Of a stretch of 32,156 nucleotides of DNA, positions 2,231 through 26,381 are shown one piece after another (the stretch's first letter is position 1; the number at the start of each line of letters is the position of its first letter). The translations under genes and the position numbers were made by a program. The DNA comes from an uncultured Mucilaginibacter sp. (GTDB taxonomy: Bacteria > Bacteroidota > Bacteroidia > Sphingobacteriales > Sphingobacteriaceae), in contig CAISPD010000097.1 of the NCBI GenBank assembly GCA_903887275.1, positions 1 to 32,156 of the forward strand, read 5' to 3'. The notes beneath the pieces were generated by a model. The model did no database searches and was not told the origin of the DNA. It saw only the letters and a list, made by a program, of their open reading frames with translations.

Positions 2231-2359
2231 GTTTAGGGAATATTTTGTGATAACAGACAGGTGCCCAGGATTGATTTCGGACTTAAAGAGTGCCGACGTC
2301 ACTTATAGGCCGGTGCTTTCAGGTTCCTGGGTTGTTCGTTTCGGCCGATCATAAAAACG

Positions 2360-2367
2360 TATATTTG
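2360..2367 (+). promoter_or_regulatory. Candidate -7 element (TATATTTG) for the radical SAM gene
   Basis: Matches TAnnTTTG about 35 bp upstream of the start. Confidence 0.45.
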
Positions 2368-2401
2368 CCCTATATATTAAGGTAACTATAAAAGCAAATC
2401 A

Positions 2402-3343
2402 TTGGAATCACTTTTACAACAAGGTATAAAGGGCTACAACAACTACGGGGCATGGCTGCGCGAAAAATATAAGGGCGAGCGCGTGTTCAAAGTAATAGTT
2501 GACGGTGGCTTTACTTGTCCTAACCGCGATGGTTCCAAAGGGTATGGAGGTTGTACCTATTGCAATGTTGATTCCTTTACGCCCAGCGTTTCCCGTCAGG
2601 AACCTAACCTGCGCGAGCAGGTGATCAAAGGCATGGAGCGTGCAATCAAGGGTAATAAGGCAGATAAATTTATCATTTACTTTCAGCCCAATACCAATAC
2701 CTATGCCCCGGCCCATTACCTGAAAATGCTATACGACGAGGCTTTAAGTATCAATACTGAAAATATTGTCGGCCTGTCGGTAGGTACCCGCCCGGATTGT
2801 ATCGATGCGGAAAAAATAGCACTACTTGAATGCTATACCGATCGTTTTGATGTCGACCTGGAAATGGGCATGGAGTCGATCTATAACGAAACGCTGGGAC
2901 AGATCAACCGCGGCTGTACACATGACGATTTAGTAAATACACTCGGCCTGTTAAAAAACAGCCCGCTTGATGTTTGCGTGCATACCATATTCGGTTTTCC
3001 CTGGGAAACAAAGGAAATGATGTTAAAGTATGCTGCCGAGATCAACCGTTTTCCGCAGATCAAATTTGTTAAATTCCATCACCTGCATATTGTTGAAGGA
3101 TCGGTAATGGGTGTTAAATACAAAAGAGCACCTTTTAAACTGTTTACCTTGCCCGAATACGCCGATTTCCTTTGCGAATTATTACCCCTAGTTCGTCCCG
3201 ACGTGGTTATTCAGCGCTTATTCGGACTGTCAGATATGGATCTGCTCATCGCTCCCAATTGGGGTCTCAAAAAATCGGAGATACAACATTATATTGACAA
3301 AACGATCGCAGACAGGGGTGTGATACAAGGATCGGCCCTTTGA
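2402..3343 (+). CDS. TIGR01212-family (YhcC-like) radical SAM protein
   Basis: 313 aa, TTG start; FTCPNRDGSKGYGGCTYCNVDSF radical SAM Cys cluster characteristic of the family. Confidence 0.9.
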   Translation: MESLLQQGIKGYNNYGAWLREKYKGERVFKVIVDGGFTCPNRDGSKGYGGCTYCNVDSFTPSVSRQEPNLREQVIKGMERAIKGNKADKFIIYFQPNTNTYAPAHYLKMLYDEALSINTENIVGLSVGTRPDCIDAEKIALLECYTDRFDVDLEMGMESIYNETLGQINRGCTHDDLVNTLGLLKNSPLDVCVHTIFGFPWETKEMMLKYAAEINRFPQIKFVKFHHLHIVEGSVMGVKYKRAPFKLFTLPEYADFLCELLPLVRPDVVIQRLFGLSDMDLLIAPNWGLKKSEIQHYIDKTIADRGVIQGSAL

Positions 3344-3516: not shown

Positions 3517-4722
3517 TTGTCACAAAGAGCGCAGCAAAATTACATACCCGCACTTACTGGTGTCCGCGCATTAGCCGCCTACCTGGTATTCATTTCACAT
3601 TATGAATACACCTTCGACAAAAGCTTTCCTCATTTTATCCAGCGATTTTTCTTCGAGTTTCATATCGGGGTAACCATCTTTTTTGTGTTATCAGGCTTTC
3701 TGATAGCCTTCAGATATTACGATAATTTTGAGCTGACAAAAGACTGGTTCAAACAATACCTTAAAAACCGGGTAGCACGTATTTACCCGATGTATTTTCT
3801 AATAACTGCAGGAGCGTTCATTGCCTATTACTTTAGCCGCGATCCCTCGGTAATACAGGGTTTTCCCAGTGCAATTGCCCTGTTCTTTATGCATATTACA
3901 TTTGTTCGCGGGTTCTTCCATGATCTTGTATTTACCGGTGTTGCTCAAGGATGGTCGCTTACAGTTGAAGAGTGTTTTTACTTTTCGGCACCTGTTATTT
4001 TTTATTTCATACATCGCCATAGTAAGTATTACCTGCAAATACTATCTATCACCGGCTTTGGTTTTTTAATGGTGCTGATCTTCCGCAATATCCATTGGTA
4101 TGGTTTTTTCGGCAATTTTACTTTTATGATGCTGTATACCTTTTTCGGGCGCTGCTTTGAGTTTTTTGTCGGTATCAAACTGGCATTGATGATCAGGCAG
4201 CAGGGCTTTCACCGGAGCAATAAATTGAAGTTTACCTATATCGGCTTTATGTTCATTTTCTTTTGCGTTTGGCTGATGTCACTGCTGCCGGTACCACAAG
4301 GCTGGACGGCTGGCTTGCATAACCCGCTGGGTATCGTTGTTAATAATTACCTGCTATCTATAGCTATTGCAACGTTCTTTTATGGCATTATTACGGAGCC
4401 GACGGCTATGAAGAAAGTATTGGCCACACCATTTGTTGAATTGCTGGGTAAAAGCTCATATATTTTCTACCTGATTCACCTGGGGTATATTTATGGATTT
4501 ATTTACAAAGCCACTAACTGGTTGAATGATAAAACATTTACTTTGTATGACAGATGGGGGCTCGACTGGCATTCGCCTTTTGAGTATGAATGGATAAATA
4601 TTATTTATGCATTTATCGTTTTAAATGTGCTGTCTGTGATTTTATTTAAATTTATTGAGGAACCTTTTAATCTGTTTATCCGTAAATCGGATTTCCTGAT
4701 CAAGGCTAAACAAAAGCTATAA
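3517..4722 (+). CDS. Acyltransferase-3 family membrane protein (OafA/YrhL-like)
   Basis: 401 aa, TTG start; IPALTGVRALAAYLVFISHYE N-terminus, about 10 hydrophobic segments, WSLTVEECFYF motif. Confidence 0.9.
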   Translation: MSQRAQQNYIPALTGVRALAAYLVFISHYEYTFDKSFPHFIQRFFFEFHIGVTIFFVLSGFLIAFRYYDNFELTKDWFKQYLKNRVARIYPMYFLITAGAFIAYYFSRDPSVIQGFPSAIALFFMHITFVRGFFHDLVFTGVAQGWSLTVEECFYFSAPVIFYFIHRHSKYYLQILSITGFGFLMVLIFRNIHWYGFFGNFTFMMLYTFFGRCFEFFVGIKLALMIRQQGFHRSNKLKFTYIGFMFIFFCVWLMSLLPVPQGWTAGLHNPLGIVVNNYLLSIAIATFFYGIITEPTAMKKVLATPFVELLGKSSYIFYLIHLGYIYGFIYKATNWLNDKTFTLYDRWGLDWHSPFEYEWINIIYAFIVLNVLSVILFKFIEEPFNLFIRKSDFLIKAKQKL

Positions 4723-4729
4723 ACCTGGT

Positions 4730-6070
4730 ATGTCTGCTATATCAAAAAACAAAACTGATAACAAGCTTCTATTGGCGTTAGCATTGCTGGCAATTTTGCC
4801 GGTTATGCTTGTTTCTTCAGGAAAGGCACAGGCCAAAAAGATCGCTGGTGACAATGCAGATGTAAGTACCGAGGTAGTGGCTCATGACGCAGATGCTATA
4901 TTTAGCAGCAAAGCTTTTTTTACATTCTCGGTAAGTAATAAACTTGACGCCGAACAGGCTGGCACGGTAGGCTATGTTGTAACAACCGAAAAAGGAGAGC
5001 GGGTAGCAGAAAATAGCCTGAAGGTTAATATAGCCGCAAATTCAAACAAGGATATAGATTTCGAAGTACCGGCTTTGGCACCGGGTTTTTATAAGATCAA
5101 TTTTATGATCAACGTATCAGATTATGATGATACAACCCGCCGGGCCTTTGGTATCAGGCCGAAAGAGATACAGTCGCAATATCCGCGCCCCGCCGATTTT
5201 GACGAATTCTGGCAAAAAGCCAAAGATGATCTGGCCAGGGTTAAACCAAACTTTAAATTAGTACCCGTGCCTAAAAAAAGCACTGCAGATCGTAATGTTT
5301 TTGAGATTCAAATGCAGTCGCTGGATAATTATACGATCAAAGGCTGGTTAACAGTACCCAAAACCAAAAACCCTCACCGAAAATTTGCGGTATTGCTGGG
5401 TTTGCCCGGTTATCAGGTGGACCTTGATCCGATAGTCGGTTCAGATGATGACCTTGCTATCATTACCTTAAATACCCGTGGGCAGGGCACGAGCAGGGGG
5501 CCTATTGATACCCGTCGTGATGAATTTATCTCATACAAACTCGAAGACAAAGAACGGTATGTAATGCGGGGTGTGATCATGGATTGCGTGCGTGCTATTG
5601 ATTTTGTGTACTCACAGCCAAATTTGATCCATGATAATATCCTGGTCTCGGGTGGAAGCATGGGAGGCTATCTGGCACTGGCAGTGGCTGGTTTAGACAA
5701 TCGGGTTAGCCTTTGTTCGGCACAGAACCCTATTTTATGCGATATTCGTGGTTTGGTAAATGAGGTTGAATGGCCAATTACCAGCATTAAAAAATATATT
5801 GCTACACAGCCAGGGTTAACCTTAGATAAGGTACTCAGCAATCTTGATTATTACGATGGCAAAAACTTTGCGCAGCATATAAACGCACCAACATTGATAG
5901 GCATCGGGCTGCTGGATCCGTTTGCTCCGCCAAATAATGAATACGCTACTTTTAATCTGATACCGGGAAAAAAGAAGATCATGGTATTCAAGAACCTTGC
6001 ACACGAGATCAGCGGGAAATACAAAGAATGGGAAGGACGTTGGATGCGCGATACTTTTGCACTATTTTAA
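4730..6070 (+). CDS. Secreted acetylxylan esterase / cephalosporin-C deacetylase (AXE1) family alpha/beta hydrolase
   Basis: 446 aa; signal peptide, extra N-terminal beta-rich domain, RPADFDEFWQKAKDDL, GGSMGG nucleophile elbow, GLLDPFAPPNNEY acid and KNLAHE histidine regions. Confidence 0.87.
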   Translation: MSAISKNKTDNKLLLALALLAILPVMLVSSGKAQAKKIAGDNADVSTEVVAHDADAIFSSKAFFTFSVSNKLDAEQAGTVGYVVTTEKGERVAENSLKVNIAANSNKDIDFEVPALAPGFYKINFMINVSDYDDTTRRAFGIRPKEIQSQYPRPADFDEFWQKAKDDLARVKPNFKLVPVPKKSTADRNVFEIQMQSLDNYTIKGWLTVPKTKNPHRKFAVLLGLPGYQVDLDPIVGSDDDLAIITLNTRGQGTSRGPIDTRRDEFISYKLEDKERYVMRGVIMDCVRAIDFVYSQPNLIHDNILVSGGSMGGYLALAVAGLDNRVSLCSAQNPILCDIRGLVNEVEWPITSIKKYIATQPGLTLDKVLSNLDYYDGKNFAQHINAPTLIGIGLLDPFAPPNNEYATFNLIPGKKKIMVFKNLAHEISGKYKEWEGRWMRDTFALF

Positions 6071-6073
6071 CAG

Positions 6074-6928
6074 ATGATCATGAAGTTTTACAAAGCTCCT
6101 ATTAAATACCTGATCGCTGTTACAAGTATTATCTTTTTAGTACAGCAAAAAAGCCTGGCTGATGGATTTCCACTTCGGCCGGGGCGTTTGTTATTAAACC
6201 CCTCTGTCAGTTACTTTTTTGCGAACAAGGGTTGGGACTCATTACGTGCACTTCGGGCTTTTCCGGCCAATGGTCAGTTTACTTCTACCACCTTTACCCT
6301 TTCTGCGGAATATGGGATTAGCCGCCGCTGGAGCGTGGTTGCCTTAATGCCTTACGTAAGCAATACTTACCAGCAAACAGGCTATTCCAGCAGTAACCGT
6401 GGGTTAACCGATCTGGAGACCGGTATACGCTATTATCTGGCTAATATCAACTATATCTACTACTTTATGCTGCAGGGTACGGTTATCACACCTATGTATG
6501 TCAATAACCCGGGGCTGGGCTATGGCCTTACCGGTGCTGAATTAAAGCTATCATTTGCAGGTAGCGGCCACCTTTTTGGAGCTAATGATTATTTTACCAT
6601 AGAAGATGGTGTCCGCCAATATTTTGGCACACAAGGCCCATGGCAAGATCGCTACAGCGCTACTTTTGGCCTTTCGCTCGACAAAAAATTTAAAAACCAG
6701 ATTTCCGTATCCTTTGGAGGGTTTTACTCGGTCAGCGATTTCAAGAAATTTAATGTTAACCCGGCGCTCGATAAGAATTTTGCATTTAACCAGGTATCGC
6801 TCAGTTATGGTCACGCCTTCAGCAAGGAGTTTTCAGTATTTGTAAGTGGCGGAACCTTTGTTAACGGGCGCAATACCGGCGATGGATCGAGCGTATCCTT
6901 ATCATTAATTTTAAGACCATTTAAATAA
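6074..6928 (+). CDS. Putative outer-membrane beta-barrel / transporter protein
   Basis: 284 aa; N-terminal signal, alternating amphipathic strands (e.g. QISVSFGGFYSVSDF, VSLSYGHAFSKEFSVFVSGGTFV). Confidence 0.7.
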   Translation: MIMKFYKAPIKYLIAVTSIIFLVQQKSLADGFPLRPGRLLLNPSVSYFFANKGWDSLRALRAFPANGQFTSTTFTLSAEYGISRRWSVVALMPYVSNTYQQTGYSSSNRGLTDLETGIRYYLANINYIYYFMLQGTVITPMYVNNPGLGYGLTGAELKLSFAGSGHLFGANDYFTIEDGVRQYFGTQGPWQDRYSATFGLSLDKKFKNQISVSFGGFYSVSDFKKFNVNPALDKNFAFNQVSLSYGHAFSKEFSVFVSGGTFVNGRNTGDGSSVSLSLILRPFK

Positions 6929-6943
6929 AAGGCAGCCAGGGCT

Positions 6944-8971
6944 ATGAACAGGATATTGATCTTATTTTTCATTTTACCTTTTTATTGCGCTGCGCAGTCT
7001 GCTGATAGCTATATACAAAGCGGAAATAATAAAGCAAATAAAAAAGATTACCGTGGAGCTATTGCTGATTTTACCAGAGCTATAGAGCTGGATGGGAGCA
7101 AGTCAAAGGCTTATTTCTATCGTGGCAATGCTTATACCAATATTCAGGATAACGCAGGCGCCATTAAAGACTACACCAAAACCATCGAGCTCGATCCTAA
7201 AAACACCAATGCTTATTTTTACCGTGCCGATGCTTACAACGCCATCAAAGCTTACAAAAATGCAATAACCGACTTCAATCAGGCTATTGCCATGAACCCG
7301 CATAATGCGGATATGTATCATTACCGCGCCAATGCAAAATCAAATACCGGCGACTTTGAAGGTGCCCTGGCTGATTTTAACAGCGCATTAAAAATTACCC
7401 CAAATGATCCGCAATTGTATGAGTACCGCGGGGTCACCAAAAGTAATTTAAATGATTACAAGGGAGCTGTTGAAGATTATGATATTGCAGTACGTTTAGA
7501 TCCCAACAACTCGGATCTGATCTATTATCGTGCTAATGCTAAGGGAAACCTGGGAGATAATAAAGGGGCCATTGCCGATTTTTCCCGGGCTATCAGCCTT
7601 AATCCAGGTAATGTGGAAGCTATTTTTTACCGTGCTAATGCGGAAGTGAATATCGGGCTGTACCCTGCCGCTATCGCCGACTATAAACGTACGGTAGAAC
7701 TGGCTCCTCAAACTCATAATGCCTACAAATATTTGGCACAGGCATTGGGTCATGAAAAAGACAGAGCGGCGGCACTTGCGTATTTTGGCAATAAAATAAA
7801 AAAGGATACCAATAATGCAGCTTTTTACTTGTACGATGGTATTGTAAGAAGTAATCAGGATGATAAACCAGGCGCTTTAGTTGATTTTGACCGGTCGATC
7901 CAGTTAGACAATAAAAGCTCTGATGCCTATCAAAACCGCTCAGATGCAAAATCCGGCCTGAAAAGGTATGTAGAAGCAAAGGAGGATGCTAACCAGGCCA
8001 TTAAGCTTGATGCAGCTAATAGCTATGCTTACATTTCACTTGCGCGCGCCAAATATGGCTTGCTGGATACAGCCGGTGCATTAAAAGAACTCGATAAAGC
8101 TGTCGGCATCAATTTAAAAAATGATTACGCCTATGCTATTCGCGGTGATATTAAAATGGACCAGCATAAATACGAAGAAGCATTGGCTGACTACGAAAGA
8201 TCTGTTCAATATGCTCCTGGAAATGCCGGGTACTATTTGCGACGTTTAACGGCTCGTATACAGACTGGCGACCGAAAAGGAGCGCTTGCCGATTATAATA
8301 AGCTGATGGATATGGATGCTGATGATATTGCGCTATACCTGAAGCTTGGCCGCACTTTGATTGATGGCAAATTTTACAGCGAAGCCCTGGCCCTGTTTAA
8401 CAAGATGATTTCGAAAGATGCAGGGAACGCCCGATATTTTCTGTACCGGGGTATTGCTAAACAAAACCTGGGCAATATCAATGAGGCCATAGCCGACTAT
8501 GATAAAGCTATTGATATTTTACCGAACCTGGTTGAAGCCTTTGACAATCGTGGGAATGCTAAATTTTCACGTGGTGATATTGAGGGCGCATTGAAGGATA
8601 TCAATATGGCTATCAGCATTAAGGAAGATGATGACCAGGCCTATTTTTTCCGGGCCAATATCCGGATGATCCAGAAAAACTATCAGGGGGCCATTGATGA
8701 TTATAATTCAGCATTGTACATCAGCCTTGATAACATTAAGGTTTATGGCTACCGGGGCTACGCCGAAAGCTTCCTGCCAGAATATACAGCACAATACAAA
8801 GCTGATTTCATTGAGGCCATAAAACTGCAGCCTAAAAACGATTTTGTCTATTACCTCCGTGGCCTGGCCAAGTTCAACCAAAAAGATAATTCAGCTTGTG
8901 CCGATCTGAATAAGGCAATTGAATTAGGATCGATGGAAGCAAAGGATGCAGTAAAGAAGTATTGCCGGTAA
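6944..8971 (+). CDS. Large secreted/exported tetratricopeptide-repeat protein
   Basis: 675 aa; signal peptide then about 19 consecutive 34-aa TPR units (e.g. SKAYFYRGNAYTNIQDNAGAIKDYTKTIELDPKN). Confidence 0.9.
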   Translation: MNRILILFFILPFYCAAQSADSYIQSGNNKANKKDYRGAIADFTRAIELDGSKSKAYFYRGNAYTNIQDNAGAIKDYTKTIELDPKNTNAYFYRADAYNAIKAYKNAITDFNQAIAMNPHNADMYHYRANAKSNTGDFEGALADFNSALKITPNDPQLYEYRGVTKSNLNDYKGAVEDYDIAVRLDPNNSDLIYYRANAKGNLGDNKGAIADFSRAISLNPGNVEAIFYRANAEVNIGLYPAAIADYKRTVELAPQTHNAYKYLAQALGHEKDRAAALAYFGNKIKKDTNNAAFYLYDGIVRSNQDDKPGALVDFDRSIQLDNKSSDAYQNRSDAKSGLKRYVEAKEDANQAIKLDAANSYAYISLARAKYGLLDTAGALKELDKAVGINLKNDYAYAIRGDIKMDQHKYEEALADYERSVQYAPGNAGYYLRRLTARIQTGDRKGALADYNKLMDMDADDIALYLKLGRTLIDGKFYSEALALFNKMISKDAGNARYFLYRGIAKQNLGNINEAIADYDKAIDILPNLVEAFDNRGNAKFSRGDIEGALKDINMAISIKEDDDQAYFFRANIRMIQKNYQGAIDDYNSALYISLDNIKVYGYRGYAESFLPEYTAQYKADFIEAIKLQPKNDFVYYLRGLAKFNQKDNSACADLNKAIELGSMEAKDAVKKYCR

Positions 8972-8992: not shown

Positions 8993-9352
8993 TCAGTACG
9001 CCTGTATCAATATTTCCGCAGGAATATGTAAAACAGCGTTCAGTTTGCGAATCATTGCTAAACTCAGTTTTCTTTTGCCAGACAATATCTCTGATTTTCG
9101 TGAACGAAAGCCAAGAATATCGCCCAATTCCTTTTCGGAAATACCCATTTGATCAAGCCGGAATTTTATGGCGTCAATCGGATTTGGCGAGGGGACAGGG
9201 TAATGTGCTTTTTCATAAGTGCTTACAAGTATGCTCAATACTTCCAACTCATCGGATGCCGCAGACCCTTCAATGATATCACCTTGCATCAGTTCATAAA
9301 CACGGGCAAGGCTAGATTGATATTCTTCCTCGTTCTTAATGGGTTTTAACAT
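8993..9352 (-). CDS. higA: HigA-type antitoxin, HTH/XRE domain
   Basis: 119 aa; IDAIKFRLDQMGISEKELGDILGFRSRKSEILSGKRKLSLAMIRKLNAVLHIPAEIL helix-turn-helix; directly downstream of the HigB-like ORF. Confidence 0.87.
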   Translation of the reverse strand: MLKPIKNEEEYQSSLARVYELMQGDIIEGSAASDELEVLSILVSTYEKAHYPVPSPNPIDAIKFRLDQMGISEKELGDILGFRSRKSEILSGKRKLSLAMIRKLNAVLHIPAEILIQAY

Positions 9353-9647
9353 AACTTATAATTTTAGCATCAATGTTATCATATTGTTTATGAGTGCCAA
9401 ACCAAACTACAAAAACAATTTTTAAGCGATATTCAATATCCACGATCAAACGGTAACTGTTACCATGTATATTAAAAACGACTCGTTTATTATTCAGTAT
9501 TGAAGCATTCCGATATTGTTCTTTAAGTTCATTCGGATTGTTCCATTCAGCTGTTATTGCTTCCTCATACCAGCTAAACAGTGCATGTTCTGCCTGATGA
9601 AATTCGGCCGCATAATCTTTTAAGGTTTTTACTGCTATTACACGCAT
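9336..9647 (-). CDS. higB: HigB-type RelE-like toxin (HigB_toxin family)
   Basis: YRNASILNNKRVVFNIHGNSYRLIVDIEYRLKIVFVVWFGTHKQYDNIDA is the HigB_toxin signature. The listed ORF starts at 9668; I prefer MRVIAVKTL at 9647 because the upstream part overlaps the promoter/operator. Overlaps higA by 17 bp. Confidence 0.87.
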   Translation of the reverse strand: MRVIAVKTLKDYAAEFHQAEHALFSWYEEAITAEWNNPNELKEQYRNASILNNKRVVFNIHGNSYRLIVDIEYRLKIVFVVWFGTHKQYDNIDAKIISYVKTH

Positions 9648-9665
9648 GTATAGTGCAAATATAAA

Positions 9666-9692
9666 CAAACGTTACCAAATTGGTAACGTTTG
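9666..9692. promoter_or_regulatory. Palindromic putative HigBA operator CAAACGTTACCAA-A-TTGGTAACGTTTG
   Basis: Perfect 13-bp inverted repeat with 1-nt centre, 19 bp upstream of the higB ATG and just upstream of a TATATTTG -7 element on the minus strand. Confidence 0.8.
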
Positions 9693-23770: not shown

Positions 23771-25909
23771 TCAGTTCTTTCCACTGGTATCCGGTTTGTC
23801 GGCTGGTCTTTGATTTTCTTTAAAAGGTTCAACATTACCTTTTAGATTTTTTATTTCCTCCATTTGTTTCTTAAACTCAGGCGAATTAAAATATTCCTGC
23901 ATTTTTTTCTGAGCTAAGCGCATATCCGCCTGCAGTTTTTTTAATTCAGGACTGTTCTGATATTTTTTCATATTGATACCGGCCTGGCGCATTTCGTCCT
24001 GTATCTTTTTTAATTCAGGACCGTTTTGATAGGCGCGCATTTGTTCGTTTAATACCTTCATTTTTTCCTGCGCATTTTTGATAGCTTCTTTATTGTCCAT
24101 CAGGGAAATACTGTCGCTCATCTTCCTTAATTCTTCAGATTTTTCGCGGAATTCCGGTGAGTTAAAATGCTGGCTCAGCTTCTCACCTGATCTTTTCAAC
24201 TCTTCGGTCTCTTCCTTTATCCTGGCAGGTAATTGGTTTTGCAATTCTTCCTTATACTTCAGATAGTTTTGGTTTGCTTTACTATTATTTGCGCCATTGT
24301 TTTTATAGTCATACTGATAATTTTTGGGGACCCCGTATTTCTTCAGTAAATTGTTGTTCAATGCTTTAAATTCCGGGCTGTTATAATAGTGTTCCATATC
24401 CATTCCCATCTTCTCCATGTTCGCACTCAATGCTTTGGTTTCTGGAGTTTCGGCCCATTTTGATTGAAATTCTTCGGCCATTTTTTGCTGGTTGGCCTCC
24501 ATTTCTTTCCAGGCAGCACTATTATAGTATTCCTCTATTTTTTTACTCTCAACCTCCATTTGTTCCTGCAGTTTCTTCCATTCGGGACTATTGTAATATT
24601 CCTCCATTTTTTTGCCGTCAATCTCCATTTGCTCCTGGAATTTTTTCCATTGGCCGCTGTTATAGTATTTCGACATTTCTTCGCCATATTTTTCCATTTC
24701 GGCCTGGTACTTCTTCATTTTGGAGTCATCGGCAAATGTCATTTTTGAAGTGTCATTACTAAATTCAGCCGCTCTTTTTTGTTTATTAGCAAGCTTTTGT
24801 TTTTCTTTTGAAGTGGTTTTTTTGCGACCTGTATCAGTCAGAAAACTATTGATAACAGCAGGTTTTAATTTGTTAAAAGATATTTTTCCATGGGCTATAC
24901 CCGGGTTTAACCAGGCCAGGCCTGTGATGCTTGCCGTTAACACAACGAAAGCAAGTAGTATGTGGCGTACGTTGCCAATTGGTTTTTTCGTTTTCATGAT
25001 TCTTTCGATCCTGTTTAATAAGTGATACCTTTTCCCGGTTGCCGCAAGGGCCAGCTGTCCTAAGTGGGTACGGGTTTGTTCTAATTTCAACAGTGCATGC
25101 GCATACACTATTGGTTTTTGCGTCGACGCTATTACCATATCGTCGCAGGCGTTTTCGCGCTCGCTATTAATGCTGCGGCCGATTAAATGGGCAAAGGGGT
25201 TAAAGAATAGTAACACCTGCATAGCTTGTTGAATCAGGTTTAGCAGGTAGTCGTTACGTTTAATATGGGCCAGTTCATGCAGCAATATCGCTTCGATCTC
25301 TTCTGTCGATAAGCTTGTTGCTATTGCGGCTGGCAGCAATATAAAAGGCTTAATGTATCCGAACACACAGGGTACATCTACCAGGGTACTGAGGCCAAAA
25401 CTGATTCGCCTTTCGATATCAAATTGCGATGCAAAAGCATTGATCTTTCTTAATATGGCTATATCAATACTGATATGCTGTTTTAATTCTGCAAACCTGG
25501 TTCTGGTTACTATCAACCTTGTGGTATTGTAAAGCAGTCCTGAAAAATAGATCAGTGTTATGTAAGGTAAAAAGCTTTCAATGGTGTAAAACTCTCTGCT
25601 GCTGATGGGTGTGGTGTGCGGAAATTGTAAGGGCATAGCCAACATCGATGGGATATAAGCCAGATTGTTGTCGTTTGGTTTTATAATTGTCCAATGGTAG
25701 ATTCTTATTTCGCCAACCAGCGTGCACAAAAACCAGGTGGTTAAACCTAAAAGCGCTAACATGCCGATATTGTGTTTCGATGCAGCAGACATTGCCGAAA
25801 ATGACATTAGTATCATCCGAAGAAGAAAATAAATAAACAGTCCCTGCCACAATGAGTGGATCACGGCAACACCAATTACCTGGCTGATGTTATATAGGAT
25901 GGTTTCCAT
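23771..25909 (-). CDS. M56-family (BlaR1/MecR1-like) membrane metallopeptidase with long repeat-rich C-terminal region
   Basis: 712 aa; N-terminal TM helices, AILLHELAHIKRNDYLLNLIQQ (HEXXH), NSERENACDDMVI, then a TM helix and about 8 repeats around YxNSPExKK. Confidence 0.9.
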   Translation of the reverse strand: METILYNISQVIGVAVIHSLWQGLFIYFLLRMILMSFSAMSAASKHNIGMLALLGLTTWFLCTLVGEIRIYHWTIIKPNDNNLAYIPSMLAMPLQFPHTTPISSREFYTIESFLPYITLIYFSGLLYNTTRLIVTRTRFAELKQHISIDIAILRKINAFASQFDIERRISFGLSTLVDVPCVFGYIKPFILLPAAIATSLSTEEIEAILLHELAHIKRNDYLLNLIQQAMQVLLFFNPFAHLIGRSINSERENACDDMVIASTQKPIVYAHALLKLEQTRTHLGQLALAATGKRYHLLNRIERIMKTKKPIGNVRHILLAFVVLTASITGLAWLNPGIAHGKISFNKLKPAVINSFLTDTGRKKTTSKEKQKLANKQKRAAEFSNDTSKMTFADDSKMKKYQAEMEKYGEEMSKYYNSGQWKKFQEQMEIDGKKMEEYYNSPEWKKLQEQMEVESKKIEEYYNSAAWKEMEANQQKMAEEFQSKWAETPETKALSANMEKMGMDMEHYYNSPEFKALNNNLLKKYGVPKNYQYDYKNNGANNSKANQNYLKYKEELQNQLPARIKEETEELKRSGEKLSQHFNSPEFREKSEELRKMSDSISLMDNKEAIKNAQEKMKVLNEQMRAYQNGPELKKIQDEMRQAGINMKKYQNSPELKKLQADMRLAQKKMQEYFNSPEFKKQMEEIKNLKGNVEPFKENQRPADKPDTSGKN

Positions 25910-26006: not shown

Positions 26007-26381
26007 CTAGGCCTCCAATCCCTCCAGATACTTTTTAATTGCCTCAATCTCATCCTTCGACGCTTTGTGATGGCCGAGGGCTTGTATTACCAGATCTGAT
26101 GTTGAGCCTTCAAATACGGTGGAGATTATCCTGTCGAGCGCACTTACCTGTGCTTTTTCCTGGGTATATGCCGCCTTGTAGATATGCGTTTTAGCAGTAG
26201 TATCGCGTTCTACCAGTCCTTTTTCATCCATGATTTGCATCAGCTTCAGGGTTGTAGTATAGCCTGCACCCTTGGTTTTGGCCAACTCTTCGTGCACATC
26301 ACGCACCGTTGCTTTGCCCATTTTCCAGAGTATCTGCAATATTTCCAATTCACTTTCTGTCGGCTTGATTTCCATTTTCAT
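26007..26381 (-). CDS. BlaI/MecI/CopY-family transcriptional repressor
   Basis: 124 aa; PTESELEILQILWKMGKATVRDVHEELAKTKGAGYTTTLKLMQIMDEKGLVERD. Confidence 0.93.
   Translation of the reverse strand: MKMEIKPTESELEILQILWKMGKATVRDVHEELAKTKGAGYTTTLKLMQIMDEKGLVERDTTAKTHIYKAAYTQEKAQVSALDRIISTVFEGSTSDLVIQALGHHKASKDEIEAIKKYLEGLEA

Follow-up and report, generated by a model that had tools for sequence, protein, structure and literature searches.

A candidate export and polymer-editing cassette encoded apart from its exopolysaccharide synthase in Mucilaginibacter

A four-gene run in the genome of an uncultured Mucilaginibacter sp. probably represents (we put the probability at about 0.6) one half of a synthase-dependent exopolysaccharide system, the outer-membrane and polymer-editing half, detached from the other; the export barrel would have been split off from the rest and joined to an ester-editing enzyme. 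Sequence comparison establishes the gene content and domains of this cassette, its intact catalytic motifs, the relocation of the barrel, and the co-occurrence of synthase, barrel, and esterase. Together these provide a genome-level handle on an apparently uncharacterized exopolysaccharide of a genus named for slime, with both its synthase and its probable export channel named.

Gene content of the cassette

The window analyzed here (the whole stretch of DNA; 32,156 nt) is an entire contig, C97 of the assembly. The cassette occupies positions 3517 to 8971 (Table 1). The first-pass annotation described four codirectional genes separated by gaps of 7, 3, and 15 bp, and the open reading frame coordinates, all on the plus strand, agree with this. 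Pfam and AlphaFold2 likewise bore out the products that it assigned: an acyltransferase-3 (AT3), an AXE1 esterase that is secreted and carries an additional domain at its N terminus, a beta-barrel of small size, and a protein made up of TPR units. A promoter and terminator scan of the cassette gave results at chance level, which have no bearing on operon status.

Table 1. Positions in the window of the cassette genes, the catalytic residues of the esterase, and the upstream neighbor
Feature	Position	Strand	Basis
MnmL/YtqA-type radical SAM protein (neighbor outside the module)	2402..3343	+	TIGR01212, 283 bits
Acyltransferase-3 (AT3, PF01757), stand-alone	3517..4722	+	Pfam Acyl_transf_3, 77.7 bits (cutoff, 31)
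Secreted CE7-type (AXE1) alpha/beta-hydrolase with N-terminal beta-sandwich domain	4730..6070	+	Pfam AXE1, 144.5 bits (cutoff, 21)
CE7 catalytic triad	Ser310, 5657-5659; Asp396, 5915-5917; His425, 6002-6004	+	Alignment to 1l7a
12-stranded outer-membrane beta-barrel, probable polymer export channel	6074..6928	+	AlphaFold2, Foldseek, genomic context
Secreted periplasmic TPR protein, accessory	6944..8971	+	Pfam TPR families

The AT3 open reading frame (401 aa) begins with TTG, and its orthologues start at the same place. It contains both of the motifs that define the family (PMC9833829), namely, R17-x10-H28 in the first transmembrane helix and R85-x-x-R88, and all four residues are invariant in 27 orthologues. 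The Pfam domain covers only residues 11 to 369, and no fused SGNH domain was found in the protein, which is of the stand-alone type.

The esterase is a protein of 446 aa in which the AXE1 match spans residues 146 to 436, so that residues from about 40 to 145 form an extra N-terminal domain. Comparison of its profile with the cephalosporin C deacetylase of Bacillus subtilis (1l7a) aligned the catalytic triad with an E value of 1.6e-54. Of 38 aligned homologues, 37 keep the Ser-Asp-His triad and the other is truncated. One locus (L028, 2239 to 3357) carries a shortened CE7 gene without the triad Asp and His, possibly owing to a frameshift in a draft assembly. With respect to the family signatures RGQ, GxSQG, and HE, the subtype found in the window reads RGQ/GGSMG/HE and a second subtype reads RGN/GGSQG/HE, one deviation each. 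By its AXE1 domain and intact triad, the protein is a member of the CE7 acetyl esterase family and is predicted to be a deacetylase. It shares triad and fold with the acetyl xylan esterases and cephalosporin C deacetylases of that family and differs from them in being secreted, in its N-terminal domain, in the replacement of the Gln of GxSQG by Met, and in its genomic tie to a barrel. AlphaFold2 modeled the esterase poorly (pLDDT, 58), and a fold search with this model confirmed CE7 only and gave no assignment for the N-terminal domain. Literature searches combining CE7 with exopolysaccharide returned nothing on point and no precedent for a CE7 enzyme acting on a bacterium's own polymer, the link that is proposed here. 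A search on polymer acetylation in Mucilaginibacter also returned nothing on point.

The barrel protein (284 aa) has no match in Pfam or NCBIfam, and its family profile found none in the PDB. The AlphaFold2 model has 12 strands (pLDDT, 76.7; pTM, 0.71). The best Foldseek matches were to the amyloid exporter FapF (5o67 and 5o65) and a COG4313 channel (4rl8), with E values of about 1e-9 and TM scores of 0.53 to 0.67; identity across the structural alignment is 12 to 15%. The predicted fold thus resembles the 12-strand channels of the FapF/COG4313 type, distant as they are in sequence, and not the 16- to 18-strand exporters AlgE, BcsC, and PgaA, with whose export architecture the barrel had initially been compared. 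A 12-strand pore is narrower than those of known polysaccharide exporters, and this is the main structural doubt about polymer export. Records with 89 to 91% identical barrels are from Mucilaginibacter. XagA was considered as a possible relative of the barrel, and the literature found on it gave no help.

The fourth product (675 aa) consists of TPR throughout. Division of its length by 34 gives about 19 units, as first proposed, and a strict count of the helix-B motif gives 14.

The radical SAM gene upstream flanks AT3 in most Mucilaginibacter genomes, whether or not the cassette is present, and so marks a genus-conserved site. The usual site of the cassette has this gene and AT3 on one side and two conserved downstream genes on the other. 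The window also contains a HigB-type toxin gene (PF09907) and a HigA-like HTH antitoxin gene on the minus strand (8993 to 9668); these two genes separate the cassette from the conserved downstream genes. One related locus (L026) has the HigA-like gene alone and another (L027) has neither, suggesting recent arrival or loss of the pair. Further along the window is a gene for a BlaR1-type M56 peptidase (23771 to 25909, minus strand), and a small gene at 26007 to 26381 may encode its repressor.

Conservation of the barrel-esterase pair

We read 39 cassette loci around the barrel, 38 of them from Mucilaginibacter or close kin and 1 from another family; a few loci come from identical or nearly identical genomes in two collections. 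Barrel and CE7 esterase occur together in all 39, the loci having been located via the barrel. AT3 lies in the same gene run in 34, and a TPR gene, in variable position, lies beside the barrel or esterase in 17. Gene order varies among the cassettes, and many genomes contain two barrels and two esterases. These counts, with the retention of AT3 in genomes without the cassette, identify barrel and esterase as the core, AT3 as a frequent partner, and the TPR protein as an option. The first-pass annotation had taken TPR protein and barrel to be the export pair, and this was rejected on the same counts.

The pairing extends to subtypes. Two CE7 subtypes pair with two barrel subtypes in 36 of the 39 loci, against 14 expected, and none of 20,000 shuffles reached 36; the shuffles ignore shared ancestry and used a split of barrels and esterases into three groups, two-group clustering being uninformative. 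In addition, AT3, CE7, and barrel genes are adjacent in a genome of another family (G390), where the surroundings are unrelated and include a neighboring recA-like gene. Thus, the homologues do co-occur in related genomes, and the arrangement, found across Mucilaginibacter and again in G390, is far above chance. A gene for a GH26 protein (beta-mannanase family) was noted beside three cassettes away from the usual site (L040, 4052 to 5182; L042, 12786 to 13934; and L078, 1692 to 2837).

The role of AT3 is less certain than those of its neighbors, since the gene persists in genomes that lack everything else. A possible but unlikely reading is that AT3 is an unrelated neighbor marking an insertion site and that the module comprises only CE7, barrel, and an optional TPR protein. 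It is favored by three genomes (G003, G011, and G014) in which AT3 stands beside the radical SAM gene without esterase, barrel, or synthase and by G001, in which AT3 adjoins the MnmL/YtqA gene, the rest of the module is missing there, and the esterases and barrels are found at a different site without AT3. AT3 also is kept in G026 and G029. On the other side, AT3, CE7, and barrel stand together in the different setting of G390, and a second AT3 lies inside the cassette in two loci (L045 and L079). All CE7-bearing genomes carry AT3 in the sets searched, and five of the 39 cassettes are without it in the same gene run. We therefore rejected a strict bond between AT3 and the module; of the initial assignment of AT3 to it, the frequent partnership stands, and the tie to what is a genus-wide gene is looser than the operon order suggests. 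Its retention without the module and its absence from five cassettes indicate that AT3 may act on something else.

Linkage of the barrel to a polysaccharide synthase

The absence of a glycosyltransferase had been noted from the sequence. This holds for the window, which as a whole contig ends before the synthase, but not for the genome, in which a glycosyltransferase family 2 (GT2) synthase resembling those of cellulose and PNAG, with a BcsB-like partner, is encoded on another contig. The best-scoring named families for the GT2 are cellulose synthase (CelA) and PgaC, and its sequence contains TED and QRSRW motifs. Pfam analysis of the operon gave 63.7 bits for BcsB and 37.7 bits for MshEN, GT2 and BcsB being above the cutoff.

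The connection to the cassette comes from genomes in which the barrel lies within the synthase operon. Strong barrel homologues are present in another genus of this family (g37; eight genomes) and, in a different family, in the genome G462. In seven g37 loci (L063 to L068 and L075) and in G462, the order is histidine kinase, BcsB-like protein, barrel, GT2, and membrane protein, and a GH5 gene lies alongside the operon in the g37 loci. In the 18 Mucilaginibacter synthase loci read, and in G390, the same operon is without the barrel, which is found beside CE7 elsewhere. This supports the suggestion, made before the synthase was located, that the export and acyl-editing module is encoded away from the synthase of its polymer.

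Across 201 genomes of the family, 41 have both a full-length barrel and the synthase, none has the barrel alone, and one (G138) has the synthase alone. The last contains a 3' synthase fragment in a decayed operon without an adjoining BcsB or kinase gene. Within the genus set, 31 genomes have both, 5 have neither, and 1, which is 61% complete, is discordant (Fisher's test, 1.4e-5, shared ancestry ignored). The phylum sample includes six genomes with a strong full-length barrel match, all of which have the synthase, and two others in which a weak barrel-like gene lies near the synthase. Co-occurrence in 41 of 42 genomes and the in-operon position elsewhere tie the barrel to the synthase and are consistent with its predicted function as the export channel.

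The esterase follows the relocated barrel. CE7 of the cassette type is present in 21 of 24 Mucilaginibacter genomes and in G390 and was not found in nine g37 genomes, in G462, or in Mucilaginibacter without the barrel; it is present only where the barrel lies outside the synthase operon. In the barrel tree, in-operon and esterase-linked barrels separate at 99/98 support, and the G390 barrel falls among the esterase-linked ones on a long branch; in the synthase tree, the placement of G390 was not settled. An export gene that has moved out of its synthase operon, with an esterase only in the relocated versions, offers a clean evolutionary contrast.

These distributions bear on an alternative, hemicellulose foraging, in which plant xylan or mannan would be deacetylated extracellularly by CE7 and the resulting products taken up through the barrel. 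In its favor, acetyl xylan esterase is the name given to CE7 enzymes, and GH26 and GH5 genes lie beside the three cassettes noted above and beside the synthase, respectively. However, the barrel tracks a polymer synthase across the 201 genomes, and the g37 and G462 genomes, where no such CE7 was found, have it within the synthase operon. Synthase loci also commonly include a trimming hydrolase (BcsZ-like), which counts against assigning the hydrolases to foraging, and no SusC or SusD genes were noticed among the translations read around the cassettes. We consider foraging improbable.

The distance from cassette to synthase is 13 to 27 kb in ten genomes, and the two closest relatives have an intact synthase on the contig of the cassette, about 22 kb upstream. 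In the genome of the window (G000), another contig of 9.4 kb (C10) carries the synthase gene (L094, 4086 to 5930), which has one in-frame TAA within a conserved region. This strain may have a nonfunctional system, or the stop codon may be an error of the fragmented assembly. In the synthase locus L095, a gene beside the GH5 gene (2311 to 3300) encodes an acyl-ACP-type fatty acid desaturase (PF03405), and most of the Mucilaginibacter synthase loci read have one of equal length there.

Predicted mechanism and relation to known systems

In the mechanism that we propose, the GT2 and BcsB-like pair, encoded elsewhere with a histidine kinase, the MshEN domain on the GT2, a membrane protein, and GH5 nearby, would extrude a glycan into the periplasm, and the 12-strand barrel of the cassette would carry it through the outer membrane. 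One or more CE7 enzymes, matched by subtype to the barrel, would cut esters off the chain, either within the periplasm or once it reaches the surface, and in this way acyl content could be tuned during export, provided that the polymer is the CE7 substrate. AT3 would most likely supply the acyl groups across the inner membrane, and the TPR protein, where present, may scaffold the periplasmic passage.

Such a system would work like synthase-dependent export. As in the Bcs cellulose, Pga, and alginate systems, there is a GT2, a BcsB-like partner, an outer-membrane barrel, a polymer hydrolase, acyl-modifying enzymes, and, in some cassettes, a periplasmic TPR protein. Unlike in those systems, the barrel is predicted to have 12 strands, where the known exporters have 16 to 18, and is encoded away from the synthase; the TPR protein is separate and optional; and the esterase belongs to CE7 rather than being of the CE4 (PgaB) or SGNH type. 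In the acetylated-cellulose (Wss) system of Pseudomonas fluorescens, acylation enzymes also have been added to a cellulose-type synthase. Wss uses alginate-acetylation-type genes within the same operon, whereas AT3 and CE7 are found here in a separate cassette. PMC10302187 deals with WssI of that system.

Besides the synthase-dependent systems, the nearest relative is the NfrA/NfrB N4 glycan receptor system of Escherichia coli, which similarly combines a GT2 bearing an MshEN-like domain with outer-membrane barrel and TPR components. In NfrA, the TPR and a 16-strand barrel are fused in one protein, and NfrB responds to cyclic di-GMP (c-di-GMP) (PMC8669472). In the present system the MshEN domain is N-terminal, and the c-di-GMP-binding motif RLGxx...Q (PMC5013675) has been lost in the aligned sequences (L095, 8056 to 9897, and homologues). 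A search of the window's genome for GGDEF proteins found none, although the control genomes gave matches. c-di-GMP control, considered by analogy with NfrB, is therefore doubtful, and the MshEN domain possibly is a relic c-di-GMP receptor.

A different division of labor between the two enzymes also was considered. Like SGNH domains and PatB, CE7 could be an extracytoplasmic transferase that passes acyl groups from AT3 to the polymer, in a two-protein relay bound to the matched barrel; the polymer then would be acylated on exit by an enzyme from a family of plant-fiber deacetylases. The occurrence of AT3 and CE7 in one gene run in most cassettes, and of AT3 in every CE7-bearing genome of the sets searched, favors such a relay. 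So does the question, stated as open in PMC9558356, of whether AT3-only proteins require a partner, "SGNH or otherwise." The persistence of AT3 without any such CE7, the CE7 cassettes at sites without AT3, and an active site that looks like that of an ordinary hydrolase make the relay quite improbable. In either case, the cassette provides a natural test of whether stand-alone AT3 proteins need a separate extracytoplasmic partner. That the module instead exports protein or other cargo, as the fold similarity to FapF might suggest, with lipids or lipopolysaccharide as the targets of esterase and AT3, is highly improbable, as no cargo gene was seen nearby and the tie is to a polysaccharide synthase.

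Finally, two loci (L045, 7933 to 18365, and L079) contain an enlarged cassette with a ketoacyl-ACP synthase III and a short-chain reductase in addition to the second AT3. Both also encode a protein of about 1,310 aa with three CE7 domains (Pfam was run on L045 only). Together these genes hint at an acyl group other than acetyl.
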